From the NCBI GenBank assembly GCA_016235245.1, contig JACRLO010000020.1, positions 1 through 64,000 of the forward strand: a stretch of 64,000 nt of DNA. Direction: 5' to 3'. Origin of the DNA: Nitrospirota bacterium (lineage in GTDB: Bacteria; Nitrospirota; Thermodesulfovibrionia; Thermodesulfovibrionales; UBA6898). This document shows, one piece after another, positions 40,341 through 58,937 of this stretch (positions within the stretch are counted from its first letter, which is position 1; each line of letters opens with the position of its first letter). The translations under genes and the position numbers were made by a program. Below the pieces are notes generated by a model that saw only the letters and a program-made list of their open reading frames with translations, was not told where the DNA came from and ran no database searches.

Positions 40341-40880
40341 TTATTTGATCCTGACGCCTATGTCATCGCCCTGTGAAGTAGCACTGTTTGCGGGTGTCTC
40401 AAGAAGGCCATTGGGTCCTGCCGAGATGATCCAGACCGGCTGACCGGTTGCGGCAAAGCTGTTTGCATTGGTCAGATAGATATTTCCCCAGGGATCGGCG
40501 GTCACCACTGCCATGTACGAGCCCTTCCAGTTCGCCCCGTAACAACCGTTTACATCGGCAGACAGATGAGAATCGTATGAACTCGGAGATGACTCGTCAT
40601 ATCCCAGGGCTCCAAGGTTGGCAAAGCTGTTGCCCAGCCCCATGAGAAGACTGACATTTGGCGTACAGCTGCCGTCCATTACAGGCCAGACTCCCGTATC
40701 CTTTCTGAAAACGAACATCGCAGAAGATATCGACTTGACGTCAGCCTTGGCCCTTGTAATTTTCGATTCATCGATCTCCTTGAATATCAGCGGCACAAGG
40801 ATACCGGCAAGTACGGCGATAATCCCCGCAACAACGATAACCTCGATCAGCGTAAAACCCTTCTGTTCCCTCAGTTTCAT
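40341..40880 (-). CDS. type II secretion-like pseudopilin (copy 1 of 2)
   Basis: This 179-residue prepilin has the type IV leader MKLREQKG with cleavage before Phe, then the hydrophobic FTLIEVIVVAGIIAVLAGILVPL helix and Glu at position 5 of the mature protein. A GspG-like globular part follows, with KADVKSISSAMFVFRKDTG, WPVMDG, YDSHLSADVNGCYGANWKGSY, DPWGNIYL and SAGPNGLLETP. The ATG at 40880 is the canonical short start. It is nearly identical to the gene at 41269 except in a central loop and a short stretch near the C-terminus. A promoter-like ACTATAAAAC lies about 35 bases upstream. Confidence 0.9.
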   Translation of the reverse strand: MKLREQKGFTLIEVIVVAGIIAVLAGILVPLIFKEIDESKITRAKADVKSISSAMFVFRKDTGVWPVMDGSCTPNVSLLMGLGNSFANLGALGYDESSPSSYDSHLSADVNGCYGANWKGSYMAVVTADPWGNIYLTNANSFAATGQPVWIISAGPNGLLETPANSATSQGDDIGVRIK

Positions 40881-41131
40881 AATACACTCCTCTTGGATAT
40901 TTCCCGTTTTATAGTAAATCGATCTTAGCATCAGCATCCATTATTTAACAGTTCCTTACGAACTGCATCATAAGGAGTATATCTGATATTCTATGGCGCT
41001 GAGCAACGGCAATGGAGGCGGGGAGCCCGGAAGGGCTGGTAACCAGAGGAAGCAGTGCACTCCAGCATCAACTCGTTGACAGGCATGATCAATCAAGACG
41101 AAATGGGGCTTAGGTGGCTTCTCAACAGGGA

Positions 41132-41268: not shown

Positions 41269-41814
41269 TCACTTAATTCTGACGCCTATATCATCGACAC
41301 CATCGGCAATAGCAATGCTGTTTGCGGGTGTCTCTAGAACGCCATTGGGCCCTGCCGAGATGATCCAGACCGGCTGACCGGTTGCGGCAAAACTGTTTGC
41401 ATTTGTCAGATAGGTATTCCCCCAGGGATCAGCGGTCACCACTGCCATGTACGAGCCCTTCCAGTTCGCCCCGTAACAGCCGTTCACATCGGCAGACAGA
41501 TGGGAATCGTATGAACTTGCTACAGCAGCGTCATATCCCAATGCTGCAAGGCCGGAAGGAAGATTTCCTGCCCCTGACAGAAAAGTAACATTAGGCGCAC
41601 AGCTGCCGTCCATTACAGGCCAGGCTCCTGTATCCTTCCTGAAAACGAACATCGCCGAAGATATCGACTTGACGTCTGCCTTGGCCCTTGTAATTTTCGA
41701 TTCGTCGATCTCCTTGAATATCAGAGGCACGAGGATACCGGCAAGCACGGCAATAATCCCAGCAACAACGATAACCTCGATCAGCGTAAAACCCTTCTGT
41801 TCCCTCAGCTTCAT
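41269..41814 (-). CDS. type II secretion-like pseudopilin (copy 2 of 2)
   Basis: This 181-residue prepilin has the same leader MKLREQKG, the same hydrophobic helix and the same conserved body as the gene at 40341. The first 50-odd residues appear identical. Differences cluster in the loop after MDGSC (SGAGNLPSGLAALGYDAA versus GLGNSFANLGALGYDESS) and near the C-terminus (NSIAIADGVDD versus NSATSQGDD). The ATG at 41814 has an AAGGAGAG ribosome-binding site. It is head-to-tail with copy 1 and divergent from the giant protein gene. No other type II secretion genes adjoin. Confidence 0.9.
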   Translation of the reverse strand: MKLREQKGFTLIEVIVVAGIIAVLAGILVPLIFKEIDESKITRAKADVKSISSAMFVFRKDTGAWPVMDGSCAPNVTFLSGAGNLPSGLAALGYDAAVASSYDSHLSADVNGCYGANWKGSYMAVVTADPWGNTYLTNANSFAATGQPVWIISAGPNGVLETPANSIAIADGVDDIGVRIK

Positions 41815-42156
41815 AACACTCTCCTTGGATATTTCCTGTTTATACTCAATCGATCGTAGCATCAGCATTATATTAATTATAAGTCGGTTTTTCAATCATA
41901 AAACTTTAATCGCTAAGTATGAACTGCCGCATGAGAATACTTCATGAGGAAAACTCGTTGTTCCGTATAATTCATTACATGCGAAGCAGGCTCTCAGGGG
42001 GCAGCCTCTGAAGAGGGGCTGGAATGCTGTCAGACTCGATAAACAGCGGTCTGAGGAAGAATTACCACTATGAAAACAGCATATACAGATGATATAATAT
42101 AAAATAAGACAAAGATAGTCCAGTTCCTTGCAATGAACTGAAGGGGGAGGTCATTA
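41815..42156. other. 342-base gap upstream of the giant surface protein
   Basis: The gap holds the divergent start regions of pseudopilin copy 2 and the giant gene. Seen are an upstream element shared with copy 1 (ATGCTGATGCTACGATCGAT), TATAAA-type boxes, a 39-base repeat at 42017-42055, a small stem AGTTC-GAACT near 42122-42139, and GGGGGAGG before the ATG at 42157. No other gene is present. Confidence 0.5.
42017..42055. repeat. intergenic repeat, copy 2
   Basis: This is the partner of the segment at 41132-41170 (31 of 39 identical). It contains CAGAC...GTCTG, which could form a short stem. It lies about 200 bases upstream of pseudopilin copy 2. Confidence 0.6.
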
Positions 42157-45100
42157 ATGTCCGGTCACTATGCTTATCTTTCAGATCCTGCGCATCCCAA
42201 AAAACGGTCAATGAATTCAAGAAGGGTTTCTTGCATATCGCTCTTGTGCCTCATACTGCTATTGGCTTTTTCATCCTTCGTCCATGCCTGGGCTCCGGCA
42301 GGTTACTCCGAATATTTCATTCCCGGGGACGAAGTCAATATGGAATCTGTGCTAAACGCCATGGACCTTACGATGACTGCAACTCCCAAGCAGGCCATGC
42401 ACTCCGTGATTACGGTTACTGCCTGGTCGGAAAATACAACGATATATTATGACCACTGGGAAAACGGTTACAACTTCGATCCGAATAACCCTGCAGCAAC
42501 GGCCGATGAGACTTACACACTCGCCACTGCCGGAGCCCAACGGATTTTTGAGTCAACCAGCATCCCAACCAACCCAAGAGGAACGACCACCTACTATGAC
42601 GGAAGTGACCACATATACGTGGCAGGCGGTCCGGTAACCGTCGTCCGTGCGAGCTGGATTCAGGCCACAGGAGTCGAAAACCAGGCTGTGGCTTGGGAGA
42701 TATATCCTGTTCAACCTCAGTTGACGACATATGTAATCCCCTTTGGTGAGGACCTTGGGGCTTCGCTGCCGGACTTCAGCCGGGTTTTCGTCTTTGTTCA
42801 GGCTACCGAGAACAACACTGTTGTGACATTCGACTTTAACGGTGATGGGACTAAGGATACCTTCTGCACTGACATAACTCGTACCGCATGTACTCCAGGT
42901 ACGCAGATCACGCTCAGCAAGGGACAATCGTTTCTCCTTGACAATTGGGCGCTTTCACCACAGGCGGCCCCCTATAATAAGGTCCATACGGGAATGGTGA
43001 TAACGGGGACTGAAACACTGCAGGTAAAGTTTGTCGCCGGTCAGGAACGCACTCCCACCGGGTGGATGGCCAGGGGATTCAGCGCATTCCCCCGTGGCTT
43101 CTGGACAAAAGACTACTATGCTCCTGTGGATAATGAACTGGTTAATACCGATTACTATCTCTACAACCCAAACACTGCTGCAATCACGGTAACATGGGAA
43201 ACCAGGACCACGACCGGTTCGCTCTCTATCCCTGCCGGCCAGACCGTATCCTACAGAACTTTGGCAGGGGATGTTCCAACCGGATCGGGAATCTATTTTA
43301 AGGGGTCCGATGTGTTTTGGGGAGTAGGCTCTGTTGATGCCGGCAACTACTATTATGAGTGGGGGTTCAGTCTCCTCCCTTCGACAATGATGTACAATGA
43401 GCACTATCTTGGTTGGGCACCGGACTGTTTACCCGTAGCAGCCGGTTGCACAAACAATGGTGTATTTCTTGTTCCTGCCCAGGACTATACTACGATCTTT
43501 GTAGATGTCGACAACAATGGCACGGTTGACCAGACCTATACCCTGAACCGTCTTCAGACACAGTATATCACGGCCCCATCCGGGAACCTCTCTATGGCGC
43601 ATATCTGGGCAACCGGACCATTCAGTATGGCATACGGGCAGAAAGGCAATACTACCTATCCCCAGGTCCCGGCCATGGATCTTGGCTATGTATCGCTTCC
43701 GGCAACTGATTTTATTTCAGCCGTCCTTACGGTACAAAAATCGGCTTCGCCTCAGGTCGTTCCAACTGCATCAGGCTCTGTAGCAACCTTCACGATCACG
43801 GCCAGTTCCCAGAAGTACACTGTGGACAACATCACCGTGACCGACACGCTTCCGCCAAATTGGCAGTATGTTACCGGCTCGACCACCATAACCAGGCCAG
43901 ACAAGACCACAGGGACAGCCAACCCGACCGTAACCGGGGCAGGGACTGCTGCTAACCCGTATGTATTGACATGGTCCAGCGCTGATCTTGGGACAAGCGG
44001 CACGATAGCGGAGAACCAGGAGGTCAAAATCGTATTCAATGCTCAGACAACAGCCGTCCTTGCCTCCGGAACGCTAAACCAGAACCGTGTCAAGGCAATC
44101 GGTACAAGGACCTTCGGCACGCCGAGCCAGACTCAGACATTTACTGCAACCGACTTTGCGTACGTTACTTCGGGGTTCTCGCAGATCACGAAAACTTCAG
44201 GGGCAGCTGACCCCGTATTCCCCGGCAACACAATCCCTTATACCGTAACGGTTTCCAACCCTGCGTCTGCAACATCTTCTCTGACAGGCGTCTCTATTTA
44301 CGATCCCCTGCCATCAGGGGTGAGCTATGTGGCCGGCAGCGCAGCAGCGACCTGTATTCTGCCGCGCAATGTGGCCGACTTTTTTGGCTCCACGAACTAT
44401 AACAACTCAAACGGCTCTGTGAGTTGGGCCGCCAACTCCTGGACCGAGTCGGACAGTTACGGCACCGGCCCTGGTGTAACCGGCTTAAACGGACTCGGTG
44501 GATATGTTTGGATCACGGGCGGCCAACTGCAGTTCAGATACATGCTCTCCACGGTGAGTGATAATTTTGCTACCAATGGCAGCTATACCGGCACAGATGG
44601 TTCCCGTAAGTGGATTGGGATAGGACCAGGAACCGTCTCGGTAACAAACGGCTCGCCTGCGGTGGTCGGCACGGGAACAACGTTCACAGGAGGACTCATA
44701 GGCACTGGGGATTCAATCACAATTTTAGGTGTAACATACACCATCTTGAGCGTCACTGACGCCACGCACCTCACGCTAACAACTAACTACGCGGGAACTA
44801 CCGGAACTGGTTTGGCCTATATCGCTCCTGTTGCATGGACAGAAGTCAACGATGATGGTTCAGCCGCTACCGTCGCTAACCAGCATATGTACGTCAGCGG
44901 CAACCGGCTTGTATTTGACCGTAATCCCAGCGCCGTTACTCCATTTTCGATCAGTAGGTCTGCCAATGTCGCGGGCGCTACCAGTGTAACAATCAGCTTT
45001 TTGCCTACTAACCGTGCCGGAGGCGCGGGCAGCGGCGAGGCAGTGGTTGCAGATTATAGTGTAGATGGAGGAGGCTATACGACACTCGGCACCTTTGACG

Positions 45101-48100
45101 GTGGAACAGCAGGTTGGAGCGGGATCACACAGACATACACTCTGAGCCCTTTTACCGGGAACTTTATCACTCTTCGGTTCCGTGCAACTGGGGCGTGGAA
45201 TAACAATAACGACGAAATATATATAGACAATGTTAACATCAGCTTTAATGCCCCGGCAAGCGCGGTAAATACCCAGATCAGGCGCACTGCCAGTCTTACC
45301 GGCGCCACAAGCGCCTGGCTGAACTTCAGCCCTTATAGTTCGACAGGACTCGGCGCTGGAGATACGCTTGTGGTAGAGGCAAGCAGCAGCGGCACGGCAG
45401 GTACATTTGTAACGTTGGCGACCTTCACCGGCGGCGTTCCTGATGTTGCGCCAGCCTATAATCTGACTCCCTATATCTCGGCCACTACCACCATCCAGTT
45501 CCGTGTAACAGGCGGCTTCAACACCGCAGGCCAGACGTTCAACCTGGATAATCTATCGATAGGCTACATTGTGACTCCGGCAACTACGGCCACGGTCGGC
45601 AGTCCGCCCAATTTCGTGGACAGTGCCTCGGCATGCAGCAGTATCCCGGCGGGGGGCTCACTCACCCTGACGTATAGTGTAACCGTGGATGACCCCTTCC
45701 CAACAGGTCAGACCTCAATCACAAACATTGCCTCAACAACATCGGCGCAGATTCCGATGGCCTTAACAGCCTCGGCCACAAATACCGTGCTTATCCCGAG
45801 TGCGCTGAGCGCAGGCACCGGCGGCAAGATCTGGCTTGATGCTGACAGAGACGGGGTACTGGATATCGGTGAACCCGGCATTCCAAACATTGAGGTCACG
45901 CTCAAGGACCGCTTCGGAACGCCGATTGCAACGACCATCACTGACGGCAACGGCCGTTATCTGTTTACCGGCGTCACGCCGGGGACGGGGTATTATGTCG
46001 AGGTAACTGACGGACTTTCATCAGGACTCTCTCAGTCCTTCCCCTATACCACAACACCAGGAGATCTGACGAACAACCGCAGCACCACCTTCACCTTGAC
46101 AGACGGCCAGATTTACACCTCTGCCGGCATCGGATATAGGGCTGCAGCCGGAACAGCGACCTTCGGTGACCAGGTCTGGGTAGATGCCAATGCCAATGGG
46201 GTGCGCGACTCCGGCGAAATTGGCCTCGGCGGGGTAACGGTCAAGCTCTACCAGGACCGTAACAGCGACGACAGGCTGGATATCCTGACCGATTTACCTG
46301 ACGGTGTCGGGACCGTCTCAGCGACAAACAGCTCAACCGCCGTAGTTGGCTCAGGGACAGCATTCTCCGCTCTGAATGCCGGCGATGCTATCACGATTGC
46401 AGGCGTTGCATACACGATTCAGAGCGTCACCGATGCAACACATCTGACCCTGACGGCGAATTACACGGGGACAACGGGAGGCGGCAAGGCATATACAATG
46501 CCTGTCGCAACGGTCAGTAACCCTGACGGCACATACCTTTTCACCGGGGCGGCAGCTTCGGGCACGCAGACCTACTTCGTCTCGGCCGCCACCCCTTCCG
46601 GCTACACAGCAACAACCGGGTCGACGAACCACCGGTTTACCAATGTCGCGGCGGGAAGCACACTGCTCATTGCCGATTTCGGCTTTAACAGAACGACAAC
46701 TACCTATTCGATAAAAGACCGCGTATGGACAGACTCAAATGGCGATGGACTCTTCTCGGGTGAGAGCGGTCTTGCCGGGGTTACCGTCGAACTGCACGAT
46801 GCAAGCCTCAATGTCATCGGCACGACGATTACTGCGGCTGACGGCACATTCATCTTCAGCGGCTTGACCGGCGGTGGTGCCGATTATACTGTGCGCATCA
46901 ACGATACGAGCGGCGTCCTGCTGGACTACTACGGCACAACCTCGTATTCTCTTGCGCTTAAGCGCCCCGAAAGTAATCTCACAACCAGTATTGATCGCGT
47001 GGCTACCCCGCCGCCAAGTTTCGGTTTCCGGCCGCTGCGCAGCATCGGTGATACGATCTTCAGCGATCTGTTGGGTGGCACCAGCGGTGTTCAGGATGCC
47101 GGAGAGCCGGGGATCGCAGGGGTTGTCGTCAGCCTCTACCGCAACATTGCCCCTCTCGGGACGTTTGACGGGAGCGACACCCTTATCAGCACTGTAACGA
47201 CTGATGCGTCAGGGCAGTATCTGTTTTCGGGTCTTGCCGATGGGGAGTATATTGTAAGCGTGCCGGTTCCTGCAGGCTACAGTTTCATCCCAAACGGCGT
47301 CGTTAACCCTGACCTTGACGGCAATCCGGCAAACGGAATTCAAAACAGGGTTACCATAACAGGCGGAGTAAGCGACTTAAACAAAGACTTCGGTTTCCAG
47401 GCCTCCAGCCCCCGTACCGTCTCCGGAACCGTATGGGATGACCTTGACGCAGACGGTGTCATAGACGGCGGCGAAGCCGGACTTGCGGGCGTTACGATCG
47501 ACATCCTCTCGGGGAGCACTGTTGTGGCCACGGTCACTACCAACGCATCGGGTAACTACACCGCCCCGGGGCTCGCCTCAGGTATCTACACGGTGCGCGT
47601 CACAGATACGACAAGCGTTCTCACTGACTACATCTCTACCTTCGAAAAGACCGAGAGCACCACCGGTCCCTTTAACTTTCAGGAGTCCGTAAACCTGACC
47701 GGCGGCGACGTTGCTGATGTAATATTCGGGTTCAAGGTGCCCACGCCCACGCTTGTGACCCTTTCGGATTTCAGCGCGTATAGCGATAAGGGCAGGTTTG
47801 TCGTGCAGTGGAAGACATCTTCCGAGACAGACACTGCAGGATTCTATCTGCAGCGGCTCGATGAAAAGACCGGCAGATACAGGCAGATCAACAGCAGCCT
47901 CCTGCCTGCGCTGATTACTTCCCCGCAGGGCGGCACCTATAGTCTCATCGACAACGGCGCGTCTTTGACCAGGAGTAATACCTATCTGCTTATGGAGATT
48001 GAAGGCAAAGGCAGAAAAAATGCCTACGGACCTTTCACGATAGCGGCAGGAGCAGGCAATGCAGCAGAAAGCCAACAGAGCAGGAAGGCCGGATGGGAAC

Positions 48101-50307
48101 GTGAAGGGGAGATGGCCATTACGGACGGCAGCACAGGAAATACCGCTGCCGACGAAGTATCGGACTATACGCGTGCAGGAAAAGCGATTCCTGCTGAAAA
48201 ACAGAAAGTTCTGGATGCCATGAAAAAGGCAAGAGCCGCCTCCGACCTCCTCCAGAAGCAGAAGACCGGCAATATGGTCAAGATCCCGGTACACAAAGAC
48301 GGGCTTTACTATCTGGAGTCCGCAGAGATCTCGTCGCTGCTTGGCATGGCTGAGACTAAAGTCAGACAGCTTATTAAGTCCGGGAACCTGGCACTAAGCA
48401 ATCAGGGCAATATAGTCGCCTATATACCGGCTGATGATATGGCAGGACTGTTCTTCTTCGGTCAGGGGATAGACAGCTTGTACACAAAAGAAAATATCTA
48501 CTGGCTCTATAAGGGCAAGGGACAGCAGATGGGCAGAGTGGAAGGTGTTGGTCCAGCACCTTCAGGATACAGCGCAGTTACGGAGACAGTCCATATTGAA
48601 GAGGATAAAGTTGCCGCGCCGGTGCTTGCCCATGGCCCGGAATCTGACTACTGGTTCTGGGATTATATAATAGGTGGCAACCCATCCCTGGGGACAAAGC
48701 GTTTCGAACTTCAGGTCTTTGGTGTTGCTGACGTATCAACATCAGCCGCGCTGAGTGTCAGACTTCACGGCCTGACCAGCACCGGCGCAGCGAACGACCA
48801 TCATGTCACGATCAGCTTAAACGGGACGGTTATCGGAGAAGACCGATGGAAAGGCGCTGAGGAGCGTCTCGTCAATCTGAATTTCAGTCAGAGCCTCTTA
48901 CATGGCGGAGCAAATTCTATCGAGGTCAAGGGCCTGCTTGATGCAGGTGTTCCCTACAGCATATTTTATCTGGATTCTTTTGACCTGACCTATGAAAAGG
49001 TATTGGAAGCCCATGACAATTCACTTATGTTCAGGGCAGAAGGCGCTCTGCCTCTGACAGTGTATGGCTTTACACAGCCTGATCTTTTTGTCCTCGATGT
49101 AACTGACCCGGACTGGCCGATCTTCAATATGGCAGCGACTATCGACGGCTCAGACGGAAATTACCATCTCAGTTTTACGCCCACACCAGGCGCACGGTAT
49201 CTGGTGACAGCCTCCGATGCCGCAGCGCCTGTCAATGCCTGGGCAGACAGCCCTTCCACACTCTTATCCCGGCATAACAGGGCTGATTATATCATCATTA
49301 CCACAAAGGAACTTGCTGCAGCTGCCGGGGAACTTGCCCATTATCGGGAGGCTCAGGGACTAAAAACCTTGGTTGCAGATCTGGAAGATATCATGGATGA
49401 ATTCAATTATGGCATCTCAAACCCTGAGGCCATTCATGGTTTCCTCGCTTACGCCTATACCAACTGGAAGCAGGCACCGAAATATGTACTGCTTGCAGGA
49501 CACGGGACCTATGATTACAGAGATAACATGGGTATCGGAGACAATCTGGTGCCGACCCTGATGGCTGAAACGCCACAGGTTATTTCCGCCTCGGACAACC
49601 TTTTTGCAGACATGGACGGTGACCATGTCCCTGATATTGCAATCGGAAGGCTTCCTGTTCTGACCGCGGAAGAATTGCGTGGAGTAATCGGCAAGATTAT
49701 ATCCTATGAGAGCAATGCAGGCAGCCGTGTGATAATGCTTGCGGACAATCCGGATGACGGCGGCAATTTCCCCGCTGACAGCGATCAGATCGCAGCGCTT
49801 GTTCCGGCGGCATACCCGGTGTCCAGGATATATCTTTCTGCGTATACGACGGCTCAGGCCCGGCAGCTTCTCTTCGATGAAATAAGCAGGGGGCCGGTGC
49901 TGTTAAACTACACGGGCCATGCAGGCATGGATCGTCTGGCCAGCGAGGGGCTGCTGCGGGTGAGCGATGTGGCTTCGCTTCAAAACAGCAGAAAACCTTT
50001 TGTTCTGGCAGGCATGACATGCGCTGTGGGCAACTTTGCCCTGGCGGGATATAATTCATTGGGCGAGGCCCTTATGACAAAAAACCCGGGAGGCGCCGTG
50101 GCTGTCTGGGCTCCGTCCGGACTCTCGTATAATCACCTGTCAAAAATTCTGAACGAGCATTTCTTCCGGGGTTCATTCGGAAACGGAAGCGTTACGTTAG
50201 GAGATGCCGTATTAAGGGCATTCAGAAATTATCACACAACCGGCAGTCCTGTGTATATTATGGATATGTTCAACCTGCAGGGTGACCCGGCTTTAAGAAT
50301 CTGGTAA
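42157..50307 (+). CDS. giant secreted protein with DUF11 and SdrD_B-type domains and a C-terminal C25 (gingipain-like) protease
   Basis: The 2716-residue protein has a signal peptide (CISLLCLILLLAFSSFVHAW). Residues about 40-520 form a region resembling the adhesion module found before DUF11 repeats. Two DUF11-like domains follow, the second (from about 670) interrupted after YVAGSAAATC and resumed at GSPPNFVDSASACSS. The insertion holds galactose-binding-like beta domains (FDRNPSAVTPFSIS and a second, related one). Five SdrD_B-type domains follow (GGKIWLDADRDGVLDIGEPG, FGDQVWVDANANGVRDSGE and so on), then a fibronectin-like part and the C25 protease. The catalytic pair is H2588 (NYTGHAG) and C2622 (GMTCAVG). 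No sorting signal is seen at the C-terminus. The gene ends 13 bases before the PqqD-like gene. Confidence 0.86.
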   Translation: MSGHYAYLSDPAHPKKRSMNSRRVSCISLLCLILLLAFSSFVHAWAPAGYSEYFIPGDEVNMESVLNAMDLTMTATPKQAMHSVITVTAWSENTTIYYDHWENGYNFDPNNPAATADETYTLATAGAQRIFESTSIPTNPRGTTTYYDGSDHIYVAGGPVTVVRASWIQATGVENQAVAWEIYPVQPQLTTYVIPFGEDLGASLPDFSRVFVFVQATENNTVVTFDFNGDGTKDTFCTDITRTACTPGTQITLSKGQSFLLDNWALSPQAAPYNKVHTGMVITGTETLQVKFVAGQERTPTGWMARGFSAFPRGFWTKDYYAPVDNELVNTDYYLYNPNTAAITVTWETRTTTGSLSIPAGQTVSYRTLAGDVPTGSGIYFKGSDVFWGVGSVDAGNYYYEWGFSLLPSTMMYNEHYLGWAPDCLPVAAGCTNNGVFLVPAQDYTTIFVDVDNNGTVDQTYTLNRLQTQYITAPSGNLSMAHIWATGPFSMAYGQKGNTTYPQVPAMDLGYVSLPATDFISAVLTVQKSASPQVVPTASGSVATFTITASSQKYTVDNITVTDTLPPNWQYVTGSTTITRPDKTTGTANPTVTGAGTAANPYVLTWSSADLGTSGTIAENQEVKIVFNAQTTAVLASGTLNQNRVKAIGTRTFGTPSQTQTFTATDFAYVTSGFSQITKTSGAADPVFPGNTIPYTVTVSNPASATSSLTGVSIYDPLPSGVSYVAGSAAATCILPRNVADFFGSTNYNNSNGSVSWAANSWTESDSYGTGPGVTGLNGLGGYVWITGGQLQFRYMLSTVSDNFATNGSYTGTDGSRKWIGIGPGTVSVTNGSPAVVGTGTTFTGGLIGTGDSITILGVTYTILSVTDATHLTLTTNYAGTTGTGLAYIAPVAWTEVNDDGSAATVANQHMYVSGNRLVFDRNPSAVTPFSISRSANVAGATSVTISFLPTNRAGGAGSGEAVVADYSVDGGGYTTLGTFDGGTAGWSGITQTYTLSPFTGNFITLRFRATGAWNNNNDEIYIDNVNISFNAPASAVNTQIRRTASLTGATSAWLNFSPYSSTGLGAGDTLVVEASSSGTAGTFVTLATFTGGVPDVAPAYNLTPYISATTTIQFRVTGGFNTAGQTFNLDNLSIGYIVTPATTATVGSPPNFVDSASACSSIPAGGSLTLTYSVTVDDPFPTGQTSITNIASTTSAQIPMALTASATNTVLIPSALSAGTGGKIWLDADRDGVLDIGEPGIPNIEVTLKDRFGTPIATTITDGNGRYLFTGVTPGTGYYVEVTDGLSSGLSQSFPYTTTPGDLTNNRSTTFTLTDGQIYTSAGIGYRAAAGTATFGDQVWVDANANGVRDSGEIGLGGVTVKLYQDRNSDDRLDILTDLPDGVGTVSATNSSTAVVGSGTAFSALNAGDAITIAGVAYTIQSVTDATHLTLTANYTGTTGGGKAYTMPVATVSNPDGTYLFTGAAASGTQTYFVSAATPSGYTATTGSTNHRFTNVAAGSTLLIADFGFNRTTTTYSIKDRVWTDSNGDGLFSGESGLAGVTVELHDASLNVIGTTITAADGTFIFSGLTGGGADYTVRINDTSGVLLDYYGTTSYSLALKRPESNLTTSIDRVATPPPSFGFRPLRSIGDTIFSDLLGGTSGVQDAGEPGIAGVVVSLYRNIAPLGTFDGSDTLISTVTTDASGQYLFSGLADGEYIVSVPVPAGYSFIPNGVVNPDLDGNPANGIQNRVTITGGVSDLNKDFGFQASSPRTVSGTVWDDLDADGVIDGGEAGLAGVTIDILSGSTVVATVTTNASGNYTAPGLASGIYTVRVTDTTSVLTDYISTFEKTESTTGPFNFQESVNLTGGDVADVIFGFKVPTPTLVTLSDFSAYSDKGRFVVQWKTSSETDTAGFYLQRLDEKTGRYRQINSSLLPALITSPQGGTYSLIDNGASLTRSNTYLLMEIEGKGRKNAYGPFTIAAGAGNAAESQQSRKAGWEREGEMAITDGSTGNTAADEVSDYTRAGKAIPAEKQKVLDAMKKARAASDLLQKQKTGNMVKIPVHKDGLYYLESAEISSLLGMAETKVRQLIKSGNLALSNQGNIVAYIPADDMAGLFFFGQGIDSLYTKENIYWLYKGKGQQMGRVEGVGPAPSGYSAVTETVHIEEDKVAAPVLAHGPESDYWFWDYIIGGNPSLGTKRFELQVFGVADVSTSAALSVRLHGLTSTGAANDHHVTISLNGTVIGEDRWKGAEERLVNLNFSQSLLHGGANSIEVKGLLDAGVPYSIFYLDSFDLTYEKVLEAHDNSLMFRAEGALPLTVYGFTQPDLFVLDVTDPDWPIFNMAATIDGSDGNYHLSFTPTPGARYLVTASDAAAPVNAWADSPSTLLSRHNRADYIIITTKELAAAAGELAHYREAQGLKTLVADLEDIMDEFNYGISNPEAIHGFLAYAYTNWKQAPKYVLLAGHGTYDYRDNMGIGDNLVPTLMAETPQVISASDNLFADMDGDHVPDIAIGRLPVLTAEELRGVIGKIISYESNAGSRVIMLADNPDDGGNFPADSDQIAALVPAAYPVSRIYLSAYTTAQARQLLFDEISRGPVLLNYTGHAGMDRLASEGLLRVSDVASLQNSRKPFVLAGMTCAVGNFALAGYNSLGEALMTKNPGGAVAVWAPSGLSYNHLSKILNEHFFRGSFGNGSVTLGDAVLRAFRNYHTTGSPVYIMDMFNLQGDPALRIW
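44629..44823 (+). repeat. inserted small beta-domain, copy 1 (within the giant gene)
   Basis: This 65-residue segment (GTVSVTNGSPAVVGTGTTF ... SVTDATHLTLTTNYAGTTGTG) interrupts a beta domain between SRKWIGIGP and VAWTEVNDDG. The same type of domain occurs again at 46309-46500, and similar modules are common in phage tail and surface proteins. Confidence 0.65.
46309..46500 (+). repeat. inserted small beta-domain, copy 2 (within the giant gene)
   Basis: This 64-residue segment (GTVSATNSSTAVVGSGTAF ... SVTDATHLTLTANYTGTTGGG) interrupts an SdrD_B-type domain between DDRLDILTDLPDGV and PVATVSNPDGTYLFTG. It is the second copy of the module at 44629. Confidence 0.65.
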
Positions 50308-50320
50308 ATGAGCAGGATCG

Positions 50321-50629
50321 ATGAATAATCAGGGCGCCCAGTTGCAGGAAAAGGTCTTTGTAAAGAATGAGGATATCGTCACCCGCAAGATTACCGGCGA
50401 GTTGTTCATTGTTCCGGTGAGGGGAAAGCTGGCAGACATGCAGAGGATCTTTACTCTCAATCCGGTTGCGGAATACATATGGCATTCCCTTGACGGCCTG
50501 ACACGCATCGAAGATATCCGCAAAGGCATCCTGGCGACCTATGACGTCGATGAACAACAGATTGATTCTGATATCAGGGATTTTATCGCAGAGCTGTTGG
50601 AAGCGGACTTAATCAAAGAGCGAGCGTGA
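50321..50629 (+). CDS. PqqD-family peptide-binding protein (RiPP recognition element)
   Basis: This 102-residue protein is a PqqD-like winged-helix domain, which binds the leader of a precursor peptide and presents it to a modifying enzyme. Evidence is the strand-turn region ITGELFIVPVRGKLADMQRIF, the PqqD hallmark LNPVAEYIWHSLDGLTRIEDI (Asn, Trp) and a helix VDEQQIDSDIRDFIAELLEADLI. It lies 13 bases after the giant gene and overlaps the radical SAM gene by four bases (GTGA), so the two are coupled. Confidence 0.87.
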   Translation: MNNQGAQLQEKVFVKNEDIVTRKITGELFIVPVRGKLADMQRIFTLNPVAEYIWHSLDGLTRIEDIRKGILATYDVDEQQIDSDIRDFIAELLEADLIKERA

Positions 50630-51729
50630 ATATGGATTGCCCGGAAACTGTTTTCACTGACAACACAAATTATCTCAGGGACTTCACCGCAAGATCGGCC
50701 AGACTTCGGGTGCCGCTTTCCGGAAGCCTCGATCTCACGCATCGCTGCAACCTCCGGTGCCTCCACTGTTATACCGGTGATCGTTCCGGGGATATGCCCA
50801 TCGCAGAGATGGATACCGGGAGGATATTGTCACTTCTGGACGAGATCTGTGATGCCGGCTGTCTCTATCTTCTGCTGACCGGCGGAGAACCCCTGCTGAG
50901 GGAGGATTTCCCGGAAATTTATCGTTATGCAAAGGAAAAAGGTTTTTTGATAACCGTATTTACGAACGGAACGCTGATAACAGATAAAATCGGAACGCTT
51001 TTTGAGGAGCTGCCGCCCCGCACCGTCGAAATAAGCCTGTACGGTGCTACCGCGCCGACGTATGAGAAAATTACGGGGGTAAAGGGCTCATACCGTCAAT
51101 GCCTTTCCGGCATCAGGAAACTGCTGGAGCAAAAGATAAACGTCAGACTGAAGACCATTCTTATGGCTCCTAACCGTCACGAGTTTTTTGCAATAGAAGG
51201 AATGGCAAAGGACTTTGGGGTGAAATTCCGCTTTGATGCAGCCATATTCCCCCGTTTAAACGGGGACCCGTCTCCGGTCAATCTCAGAGTTTCACCTGAG
51301 GAGGCGGTCGACAAGGAGTTTTCAGATCATGAAAGGGTAGCCCTCTGGGAAGCGTCTCTAAAAAATTATCGTCATGGATCTGCCACTGATGATCTTTACC
51401 ACTGCGGGGCCGGGGTTACCGGTTTCCATATTGACCCCTGCGGAAGTCTGCGCCCCTGTCTCATGGCGACCACCCTTTCCTATGACCTTCAGAAAGGAGG
51501 CTTTTCCCCTGGCTGGGAAGCAATAACGTCCCGCAGCAGAGAGAAAAAAGCAGACCGGGACTTCACCTGTAATACCTGTGATAAGAAACTGCTCTGCGGT
51601 TATTGTCCTGCTTTTTTTGAGCTTGAAAACAGGGATGCTCAGGTGCGTTCCGAATACCTTTGCGCCATGGGGAACACCCGCAGCAGACAATTGCAGCATA
51701 TCAATACAAAAGGAGCTCGGCATGGATAA
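50626..51729 (+). CDS. radical SAM/SPASM peptide-modifying enzyme
   Basis: This 367-residue radical SAM protein carries the cluster motif C41-x3-C45-x2-C48 (RCNLRCLHC), the glycine-rich LTGGEPLLREDFPEI, FTNGTLIT and SLYGATAPTYE for SAM binding. A C-terminal SPASM-type region has further cysteines (HCGAG, PCGSLRPC, CNTCDKKLLCGYC, YLCAMG) for auxiliary clusters. The GTG at 50626 overlaps the PqqD stop; an in-frame ATG at 50632 is also possible. With a PqqD partner and a small cysteine peptide next to it, it is a likely RiPP maturase making thioether or C-C crosslinks. The chemistry is inferred. Confidence 0.88.
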   Translation: MNMDCPETVFTDNTNYLRDFTARSARLRVPLSGSLDLTHRCNLRCLHCYTGDRSGDMPIAEMDTGRILSLLDEICDAGCLYLLLTGGEPLLREDFPEIYRYAKEKGFLITVFTNGTLITDKIGTLFEELPPRTVEISLYGATAPTYEKITGVKGSYRQCLSGIRKLLEQKINVRLKTILMAPNRHEFFAIEGMAKDFGVKFRFDAAIFPRLNGDPSPVNLRVSPEEAVDKEFSDHERVALWEASLKNYRHGSATDDLYHCGAGVTGFHIDPCGSLRPCLMATTLSYDLQKGGFSPGWEAITSRSREKKADRDFTCNTCDKKLLCGYCPAFFELENRDAQVRSEYLCAMGNTRSRQLQHINTKGARHG

Positions 51730-51892
51730 GAGCAGCAGCGAAATGAAAGACAAGCAGGCCTACGAAAAACCAAGGCTCAGGGTAATCGAGCTGGTCGCTG
51801 AAGAAGTTATGGGCATCGGATGCAAAACGGTATCCGGCCCGGGATCCGGCAGCGTTTGTGCCGCTGTAGGGTGTTTTGAAATCGGCTCCTGA
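51722..51892 (+). CDS. candidate RiPP precursor peptide (56 residues)
   Basis: This small gene is easy to miss. It starts with an ATG overlapping the radical SAM stop by eight bases and has a strong AAAGGAG ribosome-binding site six bases before. The predicted peptide has a charged leader (KQAYEKPRLRVIELVAEEVMG) and a core that begins near GCK at residue 33-35. The core is rich in Gly and Ser, with cysteines at C34, C46 and C51 and a C-terminal Ser (IGS). The EKPRLRVIEL...EEVMGIGC pattern is typical of leader-core boundaries in radical SAM-modified precursors. The product is unknown. It lies between the maturase and the HPr-kinase-like gene. Confidence 0.72.
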   Translation: MDKSSSEMKDKQAYEKPRLRVIELVAEEVMGIGCKTVSGPGSGSVCAAVGCFEIGS

Positions 51893-51917
51893 ACAGGATG
51901 AAAATTGTCCGCACCGT

Positions 51918-52844
51918 ATGGAACGTGAGCAGACGGAAAATGTTATGCAGATGGAAATCGCCGGTGTTAATTTTGCCATCAGCTGCCGGCATCCGCTCTC
52001 GGTCGACAAGCTTGCAGGGATGTACCGGCAGTTCATACAGGGGGCCATCCCTCCCGGGGGGGATATAAACGTCAGCGTCAGCATTGAGACCGGTACTATG
52101 CCAGATACCCGGCAGATGACGAAGATCTTTGATACCGGGCGGTCGTGGTCCATGTTTAAGCGCGACAATGATTATTTCCTTTCGCTCAATGTTCCCACAA
52201 CAGACGGTCAGGCAATCTGGCTCGCAGCCTTTGATATCCATTGTGCCACCATTTCAATTTACTGCAGTGACCTTTTCCTGAACAGCGAGAGTGGTCGTAC
52301 AACGCTGTCCACTCCTCTCAACTATCCACTGGATCAGCTCCTGCTCATGTATATACTGGCAGGGAGAGGCGGCGCATTGCTTCATGCCGCAGGACTCTGC
52401 ACGGACAAAAGGGGATACATCTTCCCCGGCCGCTCTGGTGCAGGCAAAAGCACCATTTCACGTCTTTTCCTCGGGAAATCCGGAGCAGAGATGTTCAGCG
52501 ACGATCGTATGATAGTCAGAAAAATAGACAACACGTTCAGGGCGTTCGGTACGCCCTGGGCAGGCGACGCCAGTATCGCCGAAAATAAGAGCGTTCTGCT
52601 CGACAGGATCTTCTTTATTCATCAGGCGAAGACCAATCTGCTGAGAGAGCTGACGCCGAAAGAAGCTATCGAACGACTCATGCCGGTGACCTCTATCCCC
52701 TGGTATGACGAGACGGCATTTCAAAACATTCTTGCGTTTTGCGAAGACCTGGTTTTGAATATACCTGCGTATGAACTGCATTTCATGCCTGACCGTTCCG
52801 TAGTCACCTTTATTGAAAATTTCGCAGCCCGAAACTCGGTCTGA
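51918..52844 (+). CDS. HPr-kinase-like protein
   Basis: This 308-residue protein resembles the HprK family C-terminal kinase domain in RiPP clusters. Its P-loop is FPGRSGAGKSTISRLFLGK near residue 190, followed by EMFSDDRMIVRK, a metal-binding Asp motif. The N-terminal half is a different fold (beta-rich, for example WSMFKRDNDYFLSLN). Kinases of this type in lasso peptide clusters (PadeK, ThcoK) phosphorylate the C-terminal Ser of the precursor. The ATG at 51918 is preferred over the TTG at 51876 that would overlap the precursor gene, though no clear ribosome-binding site fits, and later ATGs at 51945 and 51951 are possible. Confidence 0.78.
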   Translation: MEREQTENVMQMEIAGVNFAISCRHPLSVDKLAGMYRQFIQGAIPPGGDINVSVSIETGTMPDTRQMTKIFDTGRSWSMFKRDNDYFLSLNVPTTDGQAIWLAAFDIHCATISIYCSDLFLNSESGRTTLSTPLNYPLDQLLLMYILAGRGGALLHAAGLCTDKRGYIFPGRSGAGKSTISRLFLGKSGAEMFSDDRMIVRKIDNTFRAFGTPWAGDASIAENKSVLLDRIFFIHQAKTNLLRELTPKEAIERLMPVTSIPWYDETAFQNILAFCEDLVLNIPAYELHFMPDRSVVTFIENFAARNSV

Positions 52845-52903
52845 TCTCTGCCTGAGGCGAGAGAGCCGTTGACGGCAGCGCATGAATACCGTAGGATAAA
52901 ACC

Positions 52904-53371
52904 ATGCATTACAAAACAGCCGACCATTTCGGGGAACTCGCCGGAGCCTTGCTCAAAGAGGGGGTACAACTTTCATTCCAGGCAGGCGGAAGGTCCATGT
53001 CTCCCTTCATCCAGGACAAAGAAACGGTCATCATTGAACCACCTTCAAGGACATTGCGCGTCGGTGACGTAATCCTGTTTAAGACTGAACGCAATCAGCT
53101 GATATTCCATCGCATTGTGGGGAAAAAGAGGGACGGGTATCTCACGAGAGGCGACGCTGCCTCTCATCCCGACGGGATCGTGCCGCATCGCGCAGTACTC
53201 GGCAGGGCTGTCCGTGTTGTTGGCGGACTGAACTTTCATCTCTGGTTTCCTCTTGGTGCAATCGTGGCTCATGCGCTGAAGCTCAGAAGACATACGGCGC
53301 TCTTCACCATGCTCAGGATACCGGGGAACCTGCTATTGCGCAGACTTCGTTTAAGGGACAATCCTCAATAG
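52904..53371 (+). CDS. S26-type signal peptidase-like protein
   Basis: This 155-residue protein has the signal peptidase I/S26 core: GRSMSPFI with nucleophile S31, LRVGDVILFK, IFHRIVG with H69 as the likely general base (as in SipW/ER-type peptidases) and the box YLTRGDAASHPDG with the conserved Asp. The usual N-terminal membrane anchor is missing and a basic C-terminal tail (LLLRRLRLRDNPQ) follows a hydrophobic stretch. In RiPP loci such a peptidase may remove the leader peptide or release the product. It starts 59 bases after the kinase gene on the same strand. Confidence 0.8.
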   Translation: MHYKTADHFGELAGALLKEGVQLSFQAGGRSMSPFIQDKETVIIEPPSRTLRVGDVILFKTERNQLIFHRIVGKKRDGYLTRGDAASHPDGIVPHRAVLGRAVRVVGGLNFHLWFPLGAIVAHALKLRRHTALFTMLRIPGNLLLRRLRLRDNPQ

Positions 53372-53451
53372 CGATACCGACATTATCCGGACAGAGGCTG
53401 TCGTCTCCAATAGATTGACTCCTGAGCATAATCCCTGCAATAATAATAGCC

Positions 53452-54096
53452 ATGAGGCTCCAGACGATATTGACCATTGTCCTCGCCCTCATCCTGATCC
53501 CTTCAGGTTTTGCTTTTTCCCAACCCCGGGGAACTGATGAGACATGTGATACGCTCAAGGCTGCGATAAAAAACGGCGTAGAACCACGTTCTGCACTACG
53601 GGACGTTCTAAAAACAAAACCAGAAGTCTGTCCAATCATACGATGCGCCCTCGAGACAGGAATCCCGCTAAGGACAGTGCATCTTGCGGCGCGTGACGCA
53701 GCGCTGCAGGACGATATTGTCACCCGCTGCTCAAATTCTTCATGCAGCCAGACATTCAGGCTTTTTGAAACAGATCAGGTATGCCGGTCAATAAAACAGG
53801 ATGTTGAGAAAGGCCGGGACGCTGCGGTAGTGACCCTTGAAAAACTCCGTCAGGGATATCAGTCCTGCACCGTACTGAAGTGCGCGGTGGCCTCAGGAGC
53901 TGATCTTGACTCAGTGATCAGGGCTGCTCATGAAGCAAACGTTTCGGACGACATAATTTCCCGCTGCTGCATGGACGGCTGCGCAGATCCCTATCGCGTT
54001 GCCAGGCTTCTTCATGAACAAGACAATCTCATTCCCGCTGATAGAACGAAGCCAGGAGGGACAAGATCCGGGTATCTCAGCCCATCGCGATTCTGA
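53452..54096 (+). CDS. secreted cysteine-repeat protein of unknown function
   Basis: This 214-residue exported protein has a signal peptide (LTIVLALILIPSGFAFSQP). It contains two copies of a roughly 39-residue repeat: C-PIIRCALETGIPLRTVHLAA...DDIVTRCSNSSC and C-TVLKCAVASGADLDSVIRAA...DDIISRCCMDGC, each with four regularly spaced cysteines. A cysteine-bearing segment before each repeat (ETCDTL and DQVCRSI) suggests disulfide-linked helical units. I do not recognise a family. Its position between the RiPP-like set and the exopolysaccharide genes suggests an envelope role. Confidence 0.68.
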   Translation: MRLQTILTIVLALILIPSGFAFSQPRGTDETCDTLKAAIKNGVEPRSALRDVLKTKPEVCPIIRCALETGIPLRTVHLAARDAALQDDIVTRCSNSSCSQTFRLFETDQVCRSIKQDVEKGRDAAVVTLEKLRQGYQSCTVLKCAVASGADLDSVIRAAHEANVSDDIISRCCMDGCADPYRVARLLHEQDNLIPADRTKPGGTRSGYLSPSRF

Positions 54097-54208
54097 AAGC
54101 GAGCCATGTCGTATATGCTGCTTCGCATTTTCCTGAACAGGTTATGCCCTTTCGTTATTTCCCCTGCTGTATTGGTAATTTGTCAGATAATATGAGATAA
54201 TATTGGTC

Positions 54209-55732
54209 ATGTATCCATTTACCAGAATAAAAATAAGAGCAGCGTATTTATTCGTTGCAGTTCTCTTCAATACGTGCGCACTCCTGTCAGCCCAGCCTGT
54301 CAGCGCAGCTGAGACGGTCATATCGTCAGCGGAAAACACCGTTGGCGGGCAGGCGGCTCAGCTCGAAATGGGCCGATTCAGCGATATTGAGACCGCAAAG
54401 GCATTTCTGAAAAAGCTCGTTGAAAGTGGGTACACCGGCGGCATAACGGAAGAAAAAAATAGCAGCGGTCAGGGAGAGTATCAGGTCTATGTATTATTGC
54501 CGGTAGCCGCAGTCGGGGACGCCGGCTCAGAGAGTATCTCATGGTCTGTCCTGGGGGGAAAAGGCAAGAACGTACATGCCGCCCTAAGCCTCACCGGCAT
54601 CTTCACAGACAATGCCTTCAACGCAAACCAGGACAAACAGAGCGATTTTTCTATGTTTCTGACTCCGGAGCTCTGGTTGAATCTGCCGCACACTGACAAG
54701 GATGTTTCCTACGAAAGCGTTTCGCCACGTTCTGCAGGAGGACGGCTCCTTAATACGCTGACGGGCGAACGGCTCTACGGGTACCAGGCAACACTCTATT
54801 ACCGTACCGATCTGCCGCTGATCACGGCGAAGACCTCACCATACGGCAACACCGCTTCACACAGGTTTGCAGCCGGCATTGCCTTTGTAGGCAGCAGGGT
54901 GTCGCTCGGCATATCTGACCAGTTCGATAAGTCCTATCAGGAGAGGGAGGCTGGCCAGATCATCTCAACGGATGCCCGCGACCGCTATGATGCAAACCGG
55001 TTCAGCGCCGCAGCAGCCTATGATACAGGAAATCGCATTCTGCTCAGCCTCGACTATGTAAATTTTATCACCAATTACAGCAGCGACACGGCACGTGCCC
55101 TCGACCGCCGTGACTTTGGCATAACGCCGGCGCTTCGGTACCGGCTCACACCGAAGATCAACCTGTTGGCAGAATATTCATTCTATGGCATTTCCTACGA
55201 CAGCGATGACACGCTGGATAGCACAGAGCACTATCTCATGGGAGGGCTCGAATGGAAACTTACAGAAAAGTCGTTCGGCAGGATCAAGGCTGGTTACGAA
55301 CTTAAGGACTTTAAGCACGGCGACCGGTATGGGGGATATAGCTTTGAACTTCAGGCAGAGCACAGACTGACGCCAAAGACACAGCTGTCGCTCTCCGCCT
55401 ATCGTAAAACCAATGAAATGCGGGTGGCCGGAACTGCCTTTGTCGTCTCAACAGGGGAGCACCTTTCACTGACGCATATGATAACCTCAAAGATAACCGG
55501 AGCGCTCATGCTTTCCTTCGAAAACGACAAGAACAAGGGGATTTCTCCTGCTTCGATCTCGCAAACGACCGTCAACGACAGGATCTATCAGGCCGGCATA
55601 GAGGTTCAGTATGCCTTCCGCAGATGGCTGAGGGCCCGAGCCGAATACCTTTTCACCACAAAAAACTCCTCGAATCCTGCTTTGGAATACCGCTCCAATA
55701 CATTGCTCCTGGGCCTTACCGGGTCATTCTGA
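54209..55732 (+). CDS. outer-membrane beta-barrel protein of the polysaccharide locus
   Basis: This 507-residue protein has a signal peptide (FVAVLFNTCALLSAQPVSA). A short SPOR-like segment (LEMGRFSDIETAKAFLKKLVESGY, followed by YQVYVLLPVA) comes next. From about residue 110 it is a repetitive amphipathic beta pattern typical of an outer-membrane barrel, ending with the aromatic-last signal (SNTLLLGLTGSF). Barrels of this kind often precede Wza/Wzc genes in Gram-negative exopolysaccharide loci. The ATG at 54209 is preferred to the TTG six bases earlier. Confidence 0.8.
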   Translation: MYPFTRIKIRAAYLFVAVLFNTCALLSAQPVSAAETVISSAENTVGGQAAQLEMGRFSDIETAKAFLKKLVESGYTGGITEEKNSSGQGEYQVYVLLPVAAVGDAGSESISWSVLGGKGKNVHAALSLTGIFTDNAFNANQDKQSDFSMFLTPELWLNLPHTDKDVSYESVSPRSAGGRLLNTLTGERLYGYQATLYYRTDLPLITAKTSPYGNTASHRFAAGIAFVGSRVSLGISDQFDKSYQEREAGQIISTDARDRYDANRFSAAAAYDTGNRILLSLDYVNFITNYSSDTARALDRRDFGITPALRYRLTPKINLLAEYSFYGISYDSDDTLDSTEHYLMGGLEWKLTEKSFGRIKAGYELKDFKHGDRYGGYSFELQAEHRLTPKTQLSLSAYRKTNEMRVAGTAFVVSTGEHLSLTHMITSKITGALMLSFENDKNKGISPASISQTTVNDRIYQAGIEVQYAFRRWLRARAEYLFTTKNSSNPALEYRSNTLLLGLTGSF

Positions 55733-55809
55733 AGACCGCTCTGTCGCGTTTCCTCATCGGCCTGCAGCAGATGCTTTAAGCGGCTAAAATGGTCTATAAT
55801 TATAGCGTT

Positions 55810-56613
55810 ATGAAAAAAATAACCTGCATCTGCGTTATCACCCTTCTCCTCGGATTTTTCAGTGCAGCGGCATACGCTGAGCATGATTACATCATAGGTC
55901 CTGATGATGTGATCAGGGTGACAGTTTACAACCACCCTGACCTCGCGGCAACAGATCGCATAAGCGGTGAGGGGGTCATCATGCTGCCGCTGATCGGCGA
56001 TGTAAAGCTCTCCGGCCTTTCGGTCGAGCAGGCCGCTAAAAAAATCAGCCTGCTCCTGAGCGACGGCTATATCATGGACCCGAAGGTCTCGGTCTTTGTT
56101 GTGGAGTTCCGCAGCAAAAAAGTAATGATCATGGGGCAGGTCTTTCGCCCCGGCGTACTGACGCTCAGCGGCAGTACAACCTTCCTCGAACTGCTCACAC
56201 TCGCCGGAGGGCTGACCAAGGAGGCAGGCGACAAGGCTACCATAAAGCGCAAGTCTGCCGATGCAGGCAAGGAAGGGGAAGGTCTCATCACAATCGACCT
56301 CAGAAGGCTCATCGAACAGGGCGACGCCTCACTCGATGTCACGCTTATGGACAACGACAGCATTTATATCTCAAAGGCAGGCGTTTTCTACATCACCGGC
56401 GAGATAAAAAAACCTGATGCGTACCGGCATGAGGAGGGTCTCACCGTGATCAAGGCTGCGACCATGGCCGGCGGGTTCTCCGACAAGGCAGCCCCGGGAA
56501 GAATCAAGATCATCAGAAAAGTGGACAAAAAAGAGAAGGTGATCGAACGGACGGGCATGGACGAACTCGTCCTTCCCGACGACATTATTATCGTGCCGGA
56601 GAGTTTTTTCTGA
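55810..56613 (+). CDS. Wza-like polysaccharide export protein
   Basis: This 267-residue periplasmic/outer-membrane protein has a signal peptide (CICVITLLLGFFSAAAYA). A Poly_export domain follows (YIIGPDDVIRVTVYNHPDLA, then ISGEGVIMLPLIGDVKLSGL), then two SLBB domains (VMIMGQVFRPGVLTL and FYITGEIKKPDAYRH). No lipobox is visible, so unlike E. coli Wza it may not be lipidated. A TATAAT at 55795-55800 lies only nine bases before the ATG, which may give a very short leader. It overlaps the next gene by one base (TGATG), so export and kinase are coupled. Confidence 0.9.
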   Translation: MKKITCICVITLLLGFFSAAAYAEHDYIIGPDDVIRVTVYNHPDLAATDRISGEGVIMLPLIGDVKLSGLSVEQAAKKISLLLSDGYIMDPKVSVFVVEFRSKKVMIMGQVFRPGVLTLSGSTTFLELLTLAGGLTKEAGDKATIKRKSADAGKEGEGLITIDLRRLIEQGDASLDVTLMDNDSIYISKAGVFYITGEIKKPDAYRHEEGLTVIKAATMAGGFSDKAAPGRIKIIRKVDKKEKVIERTGMDELVLPDDIIIVPESFF

Positions 56614-58829: not shown

Positions 58830-58937
58830 TTCCAGACTACATGCAAAATGATGCCTGCGCGGCAGGCAGGTAACCGCGAAGGTCTGCGCCTGATATGGAG
58901 ACGATCTGACGACGAAGCCAACGCAGTTAACGTTTAG

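Follow-up and report, generated by a model that had tools for sequence, protein, structure and literature searches.

Recurrent linkage of a giant C25 protease protein with a predicted radical SAM peptide-maturation cassette in Nitrospirota and other bacteria

Sequence comparison shows that, in a Nitrospirota bacterium, the genes for a giant C25 protease protein, a PqqD-like protein, a radical SAM enzyme, a small peptide, an HPr-kinase-like protein and an S26-type peptidase constitute, in this order, one co-inherited gene unit. The interpretation that we favor, with a probability of roughly 0.5, is that this conserved operon would produce a radical-SAM-modified, phosphorylated peptide together with the peptide's own surface protease. 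The window referred to below is the whole stretch of DNA analysed (64,000 nucleotides). The features of the unit within it are as follows:

42157-50307, + strand: giant exported protein, 2716 aa, with an N-terminal signal-like hydrophobic stretch, a conserved N-terminal domain, DUF11, five SdrD_B repeats and a PorU-like C-terminal module (residues ~2108-2716)
49288-50304, + strand: C25 protease domain of the giant protein, with His2588 and Cys2622 (PF01364, E 6.5e-83; nearest in the PDB: PorU 6za2, 1.5e-37, and RgpB, 3.5e-23)
50321-50629, + strand: PqqD-like peptide-binding (RRE) protein, 102 aa (PF05402, 4.8e-16; under all NCBIfam cut-offs)
50626-51729, + strand: radical SAM peptide maturase with a Cys-rich SPASM-like C-terminus, 367 aa (PF04055, 1.8e-21)
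51722-51892, + strand: precursor peptide, 56 aa, with a YEKPRL leader motif, GCK, CX4C and a C-terminal GS (family alignments of 12 and of 19 sequences)
51918-52844, + strand: HPr-kinase-like P-loop kinase (likely start 51918; reading frame open from 51876), with a conserved H..G..G.GKS..DD motif and weak HprK matches
52904-53371, + strand: S24/S26 signal-peptidase-like protein, 155 aa, with Ser31 and His69 (PF00717, 1.2e-5; TIGR02228, 2.4e-12, just under its cut-off)

The giant gene, whose ATG is preceded at six bases by a strong Shine-Dalgarno sequence (GGGGGAGG), stops 13 nt before the ATG of pqqD (50321). Downstream, the GTG of the radical SAM gene (50626) overlaps the PqqD stop, and the ATG of the peptide (51722) overlaps the stop of the radical SAM gene. 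The junction between the giant gene and pqqD in the window is too short for a terminator, contains no terminator-like site and folds unremarkably (z -1.2). The coordinates and the junction scan thus bear out an earlier description of this DNA (the sequence-only reading), according to which no terminator separates these two genes, and the short gap and the overlapping downstream genes support its proposal that the giant gene and the peptide-maturation cassette form a single transcription-unit-like arrangement. Promoter-like matches at 50027 and 50231 fall within the 3'-terminal part of the C25 gene, where an internal promoter may be located; they say little by themselves, since the scan of the region yields about twice as many matches as shuffled sequence does. 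A terminator at the junction, which the sequence-only reading had named as evidence against a single unit, is absent from the window but present in one relative (L195), where the gap of 99 nt (9361-9459) contains a terminator-like hairpin (-24.1 kcal/mol, z -4.7). This hairpin is perhaps an attenuator.

The same adjacency is recovered well beyond the window. In a survey of 395 Nitrospirota genomes, 17 encode this type of radical SAM enzyme (defined by an E-value of 1e-133 or better), and in 16 of these the gene immediately upstream, in the same orientation, encodes C25; the remaining genome (G399) has the two genes on separate contigs, split by contig ends. One more C25-adjacent case comes from a genome outside the survey (G011), and a Desulfococcaceae contig (L067) shows the same gene order as the window. 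The recurrence of the C25-PqqD-radical SAM adjacency, which the sequence-only reading had proposed as a check, is therefore established both in the phylum and in a Desulfococcaceae genome. Altogether, C25 and the predicted modified-peptide genes occur in one operon in at least 18 different bacteria (17 besides the window genome), and this conservation in 17 other genomes rejects a chance adjacency. Among 60 relatives, those whose radical SAM enzyme is at least 49% identical to that of the window always have a C25 gene within about 1.5 kb upstream on the same strand, whereas those at 41% or less have none, with the exception of G009, where a C25 gene is found 5 kb downstream. The C25-pqqD gap lies between -7 and +14 nt in 15 of 18 loci and measures 25 nt in L067 and the above-mentioned 99 nt in L195; in L031 pqqD is relocated behind the peptide and C25 still adjoins the radical SAM gene.

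A second arrangement, with C25 behind HprK and before S26 (where S26 is present), occurs in one Nitrospirota lineage, represented by G009 (L046), and in one Chloroflexota lineage, represented by the contigs L071 and L073. In G025 a second cassette breaks off behind HprK at the edge of its contig (L048), and another contig opens with a C25-S26 pair (L194), which is consistent with the same order. In the phylogenetic tree of the radical SAM enzymes, the versions with an upstream C25 (counting G399) form one clade (SH-aLRT 99) and those with a downstream C25 fall into two other groups; the C25 tree recovers the same three groups, with support of 100 for the upstream one. Pairwise distances are correlated at 0.91 between C25 and the radical SAM enzyme (136 pairs) and at 0.88 between the latter and HprK, which shows stable co-inheritance and not physical contact, because descent of the organisms themselves contributes to these values.

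Upstream of the giant gene are two type II secretion/pseudopilin-like genes (40341-40937 and 41269-41895, both - strand) that are 85% identical to each other; G002 and G003 each have a single copy in the corresponding position, and in G017 a homolog lies just upstream of C25. As their upstream conservation is confined to the genus, apart from this one homolog, they were rejected as part of the unit. Immediately downstream of S26 is a gene for a small secreted protein (53452-54096, + strand), homologs of which also accompany cassettes lacking C25. It is followed by exopolysaccharide export genes (54203-61331, + strand), coding for an EpsL-like barrel, EpsE/Wza, a Wzc kinase and an O-antigen ligase with TPR; such genes are also found beside several C25-less cassettes.

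The main rival to the interpretation favored here is that the giant C25 adhesin and the cassette are merely co-regulated, being expressed together (e.g. in a biofilm or exopolysaccharide program) without acting on each other. That exopolysaccharide export genes follow the operon in this genus and adjoin C25-less cassettes as well is in keeping with such a program, as is the observation that the N-terminal parts of the giant repeat proteins vary freely while the operon persists. On the other hand, three lineages have C25 as part of the cassette, at either of two positions, and it is conserved even where exopolysaccharide genes are not nearby (e.g. L029, L033 and L036). We consider co-regulation alone to be somewhat unlikely.

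The precursor peptide (MDKSSSEMKDKQAYEKPRLRVIELVAEEVMGIGCKTVSGPGSGSVCAAVGCFEIGS) is present in one copy in the genome and matches no family in Pfam or NCBIfam. In the 19 peptides of the first arrangement, the leader motif YxxPx[LIV] and a CK dipeptide are invariant, CX4C is present in 18, and the C-terminal residue is Ser in 18 and Thr in the remaining one, as against a frequency of 8.7% for Ser at the end of 150 neighboring proteins. Peptides from cassettes without C25 and from three-radical-SAM relatives also mostly end in Ser or Thr (exceptions being L078 with Pro and L082 with Cys), and in L071, which has C25 in its cassette, the peptide ends in Gly; the peptides outside the first arrangement were filtered for Ser endings or the leader motif, so that their frequencies lean upward. 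In G030 (L028) two peptides with an identical core (6770-6949 and 17282-17458) flank the giant C25 gene. The radical SAM enzyme displays an invariant CX3CX2C motif and invariant C-terminal cysteines, and its nearest structure in the PDB is SkfB (5.8e-27), with PqqE and CteB also being matched. A CX3CX2C enzyme, an RRE and a precursor peptide, the elements by which radical SAM RiPP systems are recognized, are thus all found together in the unit.

The chemistry is best indicated by the HPr-kinase-like gene taken together with the Ser that ends the peptide, a combination that the sequence-only reading had left out. HPr-kinase homologs are known to phosphorylate the C-terminal Ser of lasso precursors (PMC8498205, PMC10368454), and the YxxPxL motif is situated in the leader of such precursors (PMC10368454). 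A structural model of the kinase from the window (pLDDT 85) matched PEPCK chains (Z 14.5, rmsd 4.6, 246 residues); the best 50 matches listed in the fold search were all PEPCK, with HPr kinase not among the matches listed, and a sequence search with the kinase lists HprK entries (1jb1, E 0.0012). HPr kinase and PEPCK share one fold. The attributes expected of a C-terminal-Ser kinase are therefore seen in the sequence and the model, namely the H-G-G-G-K-S-D-D motif, a P-loop fold of the PEPCK kind and a predicted substrate that ends in Ser in 18 of 19 cases. In pseudomycoidin, a phosphorylated lasso peptide, hexoses are added by a nucleotidyltransferase (PMC8498205). Among the loci compared here, L046 and L071 carry genes of the NTP_transf_5 family close to the cassette, and the window genome has a single such gene, on the same contig at a distance of 92 kb. 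In Omnitrophota cassettes S26 is fused to NTP_transf_5 (L066, 3892-5973, with an additional GNAT domain, and L069, 12177-13787). The hexose-adding enzyme of pseudomycoidin presumably belongs to this same family.

Based on the families to which these proteins belong, PqqD would bind the YxxPxL leader, the radical SAM enzyme would cross-link or otherwise modify the three-Cys core, the HPr-kinase-like protein would phosphorylate the C-terminal Ser and the S26 peptidase would free the product at the membrane. The least certain steps are that the giant protein might be exported via its N-terminal signal, displaying the C25 module outside the cytoplasm, and that this module might then cleave or otherwise process the exported phosphopeptide or its surface partner. 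The cassette yielded no candidate exporter of the peptide, which counts against this scheme, as do the terminator-like hairpin of L195 and the Gly-ending peptide of L071. As most related cassettes lack C25, it is not needed for the peptide chemistry itself.

One specific alternative is that C25 removes the leader of the peptide, with a cut close to the CK dipeptide after export. Some gingipains cleave after Lys, the CK is invariant in the first-arrangement peptides, and apart from C25 the annotated cassette proteins include no cysteine protease that, like lasso B2, could remove a leader. However, CK is also found in many peptides from C25-less cassettes, and S26, whose Ser and His are invariant in 29 of 29 sequences, is kept in nearly all cassettes while C25 is present in only some. 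For this reason C25 is not likely to be a general leader peptidase, a role that the sequence-only reading had listed among its options and that is now disfavored, given the many related cassettes that have S26 and no C25. The exporter-partner role on the same list found no support. Furthermore, Asp163 of RgpB, which we take to be the S1-pocket residue of Arg-gingipain, is aligned opposite an invariant Phe2538 in the C25 protein, in a region where the alignment is loose. We consider the leader-peptidase role very unlikely.

The profile HMM annotation suggested by the sequence-only reading matched C25, SdrD_B, PqqD and radical SAM in Pfam. Peptidase_C25 covers residues 2378-2715 of the giant protein with 279.5 bits, well above the Pfam cut-off of 23, which places it in the C25 family, and five stretches match SdrD_B. 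The protease His and Cys are found where that reading had placed them: H2588 (YTGHAG) and C2622 (GMTCAVG) are invariant in 18 of 18 aligned relatives and align with the dyads of PorU and RgpB. An AlphaFold model of the C25 module, built from four sequences, had a pLDDT of 50 and was not taken into the fold search. With respect to secretion, nine Nitrospirota genomes yielded no match to the type IX sorting domain Por_Secre_tail, in a search whose controls matched; a search for SprA gave no match anywhere, but had no working positive control and thus shows nothing either way. On the Por_Secre_tail result the giant protein is unlikely to be a type IX substrate or component, and the absence of this domain from the nine genomes, with the SprA search uncontrolled, supports the earlier view that this C25 protein lies outside Bacteroidetes-type secretion systems.

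Another alternative is that C25 functions as a PorU-like transpeptidase that attaches the modified peptide to surface proteins, or attaches a glycan that the peptide carries. PorU is the source of both the closest solved structure and the closest NCBIfam model, the sortase-like activity proposed for it employs amine peptides and A-LPS (PMC4560394), and a phospho-sugar end is suggested by the presence of the kinase and of NTP_transf_5. Nevertheless, the PorU model (NF033707) matches residues 2108-2715 with 243 bits, far under its cut-off of 420, and no type IX sorting domain was found in the nine genomes. Moreover, Arg722, located 32 residues after the Cys, is conserved in PorU orthologs (PMC4560394), whereas the equivalent position in the 18 C25 relatives is occupied by Gly in 15, Ser in one and Asp in two, and by Arg in none. 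The absence of this PorU-marking Arg in all 18 argues against calling C25 a sortase, and we regard the transpeptidase reading as quite improbable.

We therefore favor an exported protease whose substrate is the matured peptide or a surface partner over co-regulation only; the C25 protease and the peptide probably act together at the cell surface, and C25 may act on the exported peptide itself. A bolder proposal, which we consider speculative and unlikely, is that the product represents a new class of radical-SAM peptide, phosphorylated and possibly phosphoglycosylated. After its export, a dedicated PorU-like protease residing on a giant adhesin would process it or attach it to surface partners, and the bacteria concerned would lack type IX secretion. 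A link between a gingipain/PorU-type surface protease and RiPP biosynthesis was not found in the open-licence literature. Since E. coli can serve as expression host for the small peptide and for the enzymes of the cassette, the chemistry is directly testable, and likewise the role of orphan C25 proteins outside Bacteroidota.

Each part of the operon is of a known kind; the combination of a lasso-like leader, a C-terminal Ser kinase and a radical SAM enzyme with a recurrent C25 surface protein was not found described in the open-licence literature. PorU resembles the giant protein in its C25 domain, the preceding module and the Cys/His dyad; the giant protein differs in lacking the PorU-specific Arg, in its fusion to a giant adhesin-like repeat region and in having no detected type IX sorting domain. 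The sactipeptide and ranthipeptide maturases SkfB and CteB are, by sequence, like the radical SAM enzyme of the window in their fold, in the extra C-terminal cysteines and in the accompanying Cys-containing peptide, whereas the precursor family here is a different one. SynChlorMet systems (NCBIfam ScmC-ScmF) likewise bring together PqqD, an HprK-like protein and radical SAM, but have several radical SAM enzymes in place of one and no C25 noted; in the three-radical-SAM relatives compared here the peptides are likewise Cys-rich and similar, and most of them end in Ser. The cassette was rejected as a SynChlorMet system, as every Scm model scores far under its cut-off (ScmC 24.6 vs 125, ScmD 32.4 vs 100, ScmE/ScmF 77.9 vs 400). 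Multi-radical-SAM cassettes with PqqD, HprK and S26 (L076-L095) encode W/YxKPxL Cys-rich peptides that mostly end in Ser, and no tested one reached a curated NCBIfam cut-off. As in lasso systems, a YxxPxL leader motif and a PqqD-like RRE occur together in the unit; no Pfam match to a lasso cyclase (Asn-synthetase-like) or B2 protease was obtained in the ten window proteins from 42157 to 58829. The phosphorylated lasso clusters (paeninodin, pseudomycoidin and Bradymonas bsf) share with the cassette the PqqD-like RRE, the YxxPxL leader, the HPr-kinase homolog, the C-terminal Ser and, in some relatives, NTP_transf_5, but in the place of an annotated cyclase and B2 transglutaminase-type protease the cassette has radical SAM, S26 and C25. 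These comparisons point to a peptide family without a name, in which the leader and the C-terminal Ser would follow the rules of lasso peptides and the predicted chemistry would be that of radical SAM enzymes.
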